Source: Dehalococcoidia bacterium (GTDB taxonomy: Bacteria > Chloroflexota > Dehalococcoidia > Lucifugimonadales > Lucifugimonadaceae). Taken from it: DNA of 64,000 bases. The position numbers and the translations under genes were made by a program. Positions 42,113 through 42,736 of the stretch are shown here, in pieces. Below the pieces are notes generated by a model. It was not told the DNA's origin and searched no databases. It saw only the letters and a program-made list of their open reading frames with translations. Position 1 is the first letter of the stretch. Each line of letters begins with the position of its first letter. The stretch is from contig JAAZYI010000040.1 of NCBI GenBank assembly GCA_014239735.1, positions 1-64,000 on the forward strand, in the 5' to 3' direction.

Positions 42113-42658
42113 CTATTTTGGCGCAAGAATTATGCTTAAAGTTCGCCCCTCCATACCTGGAGCCTTGTCTATCTCAGATAGATCTTTTAAATCTAAGTAT
42201 AATTTTTTTAGTATATCTACACCTAAATCAGGATAAGCATTTTCTCTACCTCTAAGCATCAATGATATCTTTACCTTATTTCCTTCTTTTAAAAATGTTT
42301 CTATTTGTTTTCTCTTAGAATCAACATCGTGCTGACTAATTCTCATTCTCAATCTTATTTCTTTCAATCCAATTTTGACTTGAGATTTTTTAGCTTGTTT
42401 AAGCTTTTTTGCTTGAGAAAATTTGAATTTTCCGTAGTCCAATATTCTGCACACCGGAGGATTCTGATTAGGTCCAACCTCAACTAAATCTAAGCCTTGT
42501 TCTTGTGCTAGCCTAATAGCATCATTCAAGACTAAAACTGTTGAGTCTGAACTCTGATCTACAGAGCTTCCTAAAACTATCCTCACTTTTTCAGCTCTTA
42601 TTCTCTGATTAATCCGATAGTCTTTTACAGTATTCTTATTCTTTTGTATTGCAGGTAT
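42113..42658 (-). CDS. infC: Translation initiation factor IF-3, with ATA start codon
   Basis: 181 residues when started at the ATA at 42658-42656. Standard starts give only a GTG at 42586, which would cut off the first 24 residues including [14 protein letters not shown], a conserved part of the IF-3 N-terminal domain (usual form YRINExIRAxEVRLI). The frame is open to the ATA, which sits five bases after AGGAG. Non-standard starts (ATT, ATC, ATA) are a known feature of infC and allow IF-3 to repress its own synthesis, because IF-3 rejects such codons. The rest is conventional: [25 protein letters not shown] in part and [16 protein letters not shown]. Confidence 0.93.
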
Positions 42659-42706
42659 TGATTCTCCTATACTTGTTACTTGTTCAAATCACTTATTAAC
42701 TGCGAA

Positions 42707-42736
42707 ATCTTAGCATCTTTTGCGCAAAAAGGTCAA
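42707..42736 (-). promoter_or_regulatory. Promoter of infC-rpmI-rplT with a palindrome in the spacer
   Basis: On the minus strand, TTGACC (plus 42731-42736), an 18-base spacer and TAAGAT (plus 42707-42712) preceded by TGC, an extended -10. The spacer holds a perfect 12-base palindrome TTTTGCGCAAAA (42718-42729). The start point would be about 40 bases before the ATA start codon. Confidence 0.55.

Follow-up and report, generated by a model that had tools for sequence, protein, structure and literature searches.

The synthesis of translation initiation factor IF-3 (IF3) is controlled in E. coli by IF3 itself, through the ATT start codon of its gene, infC (PMC5472188). That this feedback acts through a non-standard start is established, and autocontrol is lost when the E. 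coli AUU is changed to AUG (Butler 1987; Sacerdot 1996; both cited in PMC5472188). Other non-standard infC starts are ATC in Streptomyces (PMC5472188), ATT in Listeria, where it was confirmed experimentally (PMC13068326), and AUA in S. aureus, now known from Ribo-Ret (PMC13009471). These examples agree with the statement, in a sequence-only reading of the locus described here, that infC uses ATT, ATC, or ATA in several bacteria. Misannotation of the gene is also documented, in most Streptomyces species (PMC5472188) and in most enterobacterial genomes (PMC3091656). We found nothing specific on infC starts in Chloroflexi in the literature; subscription journals were thinly covered, and the absence proves little.

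The DNA analyzed here, referred to as the window, is a 64,000-nucleotide stretch of a SAR202-type genome of the class Dehalococcoidia. Its infC lies on the reverse strand at positions 42,658–42,113, and consists of 181 codons counted from an ATA, followed by a stop codon at 42,115–42,113. Downstream in the infC-rpmI-rplT cluster, the ORF list places rpmI (L35; 41,899–42,093, with the start set at an internal ATG) and rplT (L20; 41,541–41,897), both on the reverse strand. While the E. coli arrangement is thrS-infC, the window's infC has a predicted promoter immediately ahead of it and ftsH in divergent orientation. The product read from the ATA scored 184 bits against the NCBIfam equivalog TIGR00168 (infC; cut-off 60), and matched PF05198 (IF3_N) over profile positions 1–70 of 70, starting at residue 16, and PF00707 (IF3_C) over positions 3–86 of 86. 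Both IF3 domains are thus present, which identifies the product as IF-3.

The proposed initiation codon, ATA at 42,658–42,656, is preceded by a Shine-Dalgarno sequence, AGGAG, at 42,668–42,664, from which it is separated by the 5-nt spacer AATCA. The 3′ end of 16S rRNA in the host genome carries the canonical anti-Shine-Dalgarno sequence GGATCACCTCCTTT, to which AGGAG is complementary, so the corresponding pairing is available in the host. The infC frame is open upstream as far as a TGA at 42,691–42,689, and the first ATG, GTG, or TTG within it is the GTG at 42,586–42,584, exactly 24 codons after the ATA; no Shine-Dalgarno sequence was found ahead of this GTG. The coordinates given in the sequence-only reading (ATA five bases after AGGAG, with the GTG 24 codons farther on) were confirmed, with the qualification that its interval, 42,586–42,670, corresponds to the start-site region and not to the gene. 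We screened the 59 non-overlapping ORFs of at least 100 amino acids in the window for upstream ATH and CTG starts. The sole ORF with an ATA, ATT, ATC, or CTG accompanied by a Shine-Dalgarno match of at least 5 nt, and located more than two codons before the first NTG, was infC, which argues that the combination seen here is more than chance.

The window's infC resembles that of E. coli in being an IF3 gene with a non-NTG, AUH start, though the codon is AUU in E. coli and AUA here. In S. aureus, the same gene uses the same AUA codon in a Shine-Dalgarno-directed manner, but its Shine-Dalgarno sequence is an extended motif rather than the 5-nt AGGAG of the window, and its start was seen by Ribo-Ret, while the one described here is proposed from sequence comparison. 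Streptomyces infC shares an AUH start and the same misannotation problem, and Listeria monocytogenes infC shares a fixed non-standard start; these genes differ in using ATC and ATT, respectively, and belong to other phyla. The infC genes of other Dehalococcoidia and Chloroflexota (L098–L318) have ATA, ATC, or ATT with a Shine-Dalgarno sequence just upstream of IF3_N.

The best explanation of the locus, to which we assign a probability of about 85%, is that infC starts at AUA 42,658, set by AGGAG, and is subject to an IF3-dependent homeostatic loop. AGGAG would position the ribosome on this AUA, which is probably the codon used in vivo. The loop would follow from the action of IF3 on initiation complexes, which it destabilises unless the codon is AUG, GUG, or UUG: translation of infC from AUA would fall when IF3 is plentiful and rise when it is scarce. 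Such feedback would be expected in this organism by homology with E. coli, where it is established.

The distribution of infC starts was determined with a start caller that weighs NTG and ATH codons against each other according to their pairing energy with the anti-Shine-Dalgarno sequence. Within the family (71 genes), the called starts were ATA in 63 cases, ATC in five, and TTG in two, with none called in one. In a sample of the class Dehalococcoidia (86 genes), ATA was called 66 times, ATC 10, ATT four, TTG three, and ATG once, with no call in two genes; two members of this sample, L207 and L208, showed no clear fit to the ATH-start pattern, whereas L232 and L233, small complete genomes resembling Dehalococcoides, have ATA. 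Outside the class, a Chloroflexota sample of 70 genes, 30 of them best-scoring matches, gave ATT in 25, ATC in 25, ATA in 17, TTG in one, and no call in two. An AUH start with a Shine-Dalgarno sequence was therefore present in 68 of 71 family genes and 80 of 86 genes of the class sample. The caller does not produce ATH starts wholesale, since control genes mostly received canonical or TTG starts: rpmI was assigned ATG, GTG, or TTG in 64 of 65 called genes at the class loci and 20 of 23 at the phylum loci, and TTG was called in 41 of 70 other infC loci, mostly from spirochaetes.

These data bear on a different reading, according to which AUA is a fixed weak start that keeps infC expression low, without important IF3 feedback in this group. 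In S. aureus reporters for genes other than infC, expression from AUA and AUU was about 10% of that from AUG (PMC13009471), and selection could be acting on weakness alone, the feedback proposed here being drawn from homology. Against this, both IF3 domains are conserved in the host genome, and across the phylum the codon alternates among ATA, ATC, and ATT but remains AUH, as expected under discrimination by IF3, although selection for weakness alone would also preserve AUH. On balance, we consider a weak start without feedback improbable, at roughly one chance in ten, and prefer AUA initiation with an IF3-dependent loop.

Selection on the codon itself was evaluated in genomes with a GC content of at least 50%, with the expectation for ATA taken from each gene's own isoleucine codon usage. 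The third base of an ATA that was merely an internal isoleucine codon should match this usage. ATA was the start in 33 of 34 such family genes, where 5.9 would be expected, and in 47 of 60 such genes of the class sample, against an expectation of 12.9; the corresponding z-values, about 12, overstate independence, as the genomes are related, although the direction of the effect is clear. ATA is far more common at the start than among the other isoleucine codons, and the results thus show that the codon itself is selected.

Two more distant members of the window's genus, L136 and L137 (about 58–60% identity), have no in-frame ATH candidate in infC. The best start in these genes is a TTG located 19 codons before the conserved Asn and preceded by a weak, distant AAGG, and they appear to use it; a non-standard infC start is therefore not indispensable. 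An ATA that follows a strong GGGAGG farther upstream in both was rejected as a start, being out of the infC frame and opening a short frame that is unconserved between the two. A tentative proposal, which we hold to be possible but rather doubtful, is that selection maintains AUA specifically, and not any weak AUH, at infC throughout the class Dehalococcoidia as the IF3 set-point, including in GC-rich genomes that seldom encode isoleucine with AUA, and that the L136/L137 lineage escaped to UUG. If so, IF3 synthesis in that lineage would now fall outside the discrimination that IF3 itself exerts.

To compare the start region among close relatives, we used seven genus members including the window, the other six being 72–96% identical to it at the protein level; most of the sequences compared are metagenome assemblies. 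ATA-CCT after AGGAG is invariant in all seven, with the ATA 5–6 nt after the AGGAG. The codon aligned with the window's GTG at 42,586, on the other hand, is GTG, GTT, GTA, or GTC. In L008, which reads AGGAGAAATAA-ATA, a TAA stop stands directly before the ATA, and in L006 and L007 a stop is found three codons upstream of it; L004 has an in-frame GTG farther upstream that is absent from the other close members. In the 23 codons that follow the ATA, pairwise differences among relatives numbered 34, 14, and 101 at codon positions 1, 2, and 3, respectively. As the differences fall mainly at third positions, the 24 codons missed by standard start rules (42,658–42,587) evolve as coding sequence. A conserved GTG or ATG at 42,586 with no conservation upstream, which the sequence-only reading had named as an outcome that would speak against an ATA start, did not occur in the relatives, and its assignment of ATA as the probable infC start is upheld by the comparison.

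The same data make it very improbable that GTG 42,586 is the true start and that the conservation upstream reflects a leader or regulatory region. No standard start codon precedes this GTG in the frame, but it lacks a Shine-Dalgarno sequence, is replaced by GTT, GTA, or GTC in relatives, and lies downstream of sequence that evolves as protein. It would also cut into IF3_N, as had been claimed from the sequence: the domain match covers profile positions 21–70 when the product is read from the GTG instead of 1–70 from the ATA, at a loss of 11.5 bits, and the residues aligned to the first IF3_N positions would be removed. The GTG is most likely an internal valine codon, number 25 of the gene.

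A start at another upstream codon, namely, ATA 42,649 (codon 4), ATA 42,670, or ATT 42,613, is just as hard to sustain. Wherever the sequence is readable, codon 4 of the relatives is likewise ATA; however, it lies 14 nt from AGGAG, and ATA 42,670 is upstream of AGGAG, and neither scores a Shine-Dalgarno sequence. ATT 42,613 is preceded by AAAG only, and some relatives have ATA or GTT in its place. That the missing standard start reflects an assembly error or a lost ATG may be dismissed as scarcely credible, for although the window sequence comes from a metagenome assembly, ATA with its Shine-Dalgarno sequence recurs in six more genomes of the genus that were assembled separately, and most of the class shows the pattern.

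The proposed AUA start at 42,658 has consequences for annotation. The sequence-only reading predicted that automated calls shorten infC throughout the lineage. With starts limited to ATG, GTG, and TTG, this would hold for the ATH-start genes that lack an upstream NTG, 49 of 68 in the family and 58 of 80 in the class sample; the median distance to the next NTG was 17 codons in the family and 25 in the class. It would not hold for the remaining 19 family and 22 class genes, in which an NTG lies upstream and NTG-only calling might over-extend the gene instead. When IF3 proteins of these genomes are predicted by such rules, their N-termini will often be wrong, a concern for phylogenies, structure models, and proteomics. 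The data extend the non-standard infC start to an uncultured marine group, and indicate AUA as the prevailing infC start over the whole class Dehalococcoidia. The turnover of the start codon (ATA, ATC, ATT, and rare TTG) provides a natural series for the strictness that the feedback requires.

A pattern match upstream of infC predicts a σ70-type promoter, TTGACC-N18-TAAGAT, with an extended −10 element (TG), at 42,736–42,707 on the reverse strand; both hexamers are invariant in all seven genus members. From its position, the 5′ leader of infC would be, very roughly, 40–45 nt long. In bacteria such as B. subtilis, an L20 leader serves as an RNA cis-regulator before infC-rpmI-rplT. A structured leader of this type was rejected here: no match to Rfam families was found near infC, the predicted leader is too short, and the start region folded no better than shuffled sequences (z 0.91). 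At 42,699–42,721 and 42,731–42,736 (reverse strand), the predicted promoter and the bases that follow it, AAAAGATGCTAAGATTTCGCAGT, do not vary among the seven genus members, forming a long conserved island in otherwise variable intergenic DNA.

The start codon is seven codons before the conserved Asn in most family and class genes, but 16 before it in the window's genus, a nine-codon extension. The ATA start thus persisted while IF3 of this genus gained nine N-terminal codons. The alignment of the ATA form to solved IF3 structures, 5lmn and 1tif among them, begins at its residue 12. Residue 2 of the IF3 in 5lmn, from Thermus, pairs with residue 12, and the window's IF3 therefore has about 10 extra N-terminal residues relative to it. 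In L178, L180, and L200, from one family of the class, and in L238, infC has an N-terminal extension that begins with ATA GTT AAA, about 17–18 codons before the conserved Asn; these genes seem to be another, separate instance of N-terminal lengthening in which the start is ATA. In L118 (G037:C371), CTA with GGAGGAGCCAAGGCA upstream occupies the position of the relatives' ATA; it is either one more non-standard start or a mistake in the assembly, as the contig ends nearby. Finally, at 42,658–42,629 on the reverse strand, most of the first nine codons are invariant in the genus even at third positions: CCT, ATA, CAA, AAG, AAT, and AAT are unchanged, and the codons after them vary. This third-position invariance near the ATA may reflect constraint acting on the mRNA around the start and not on the protein.
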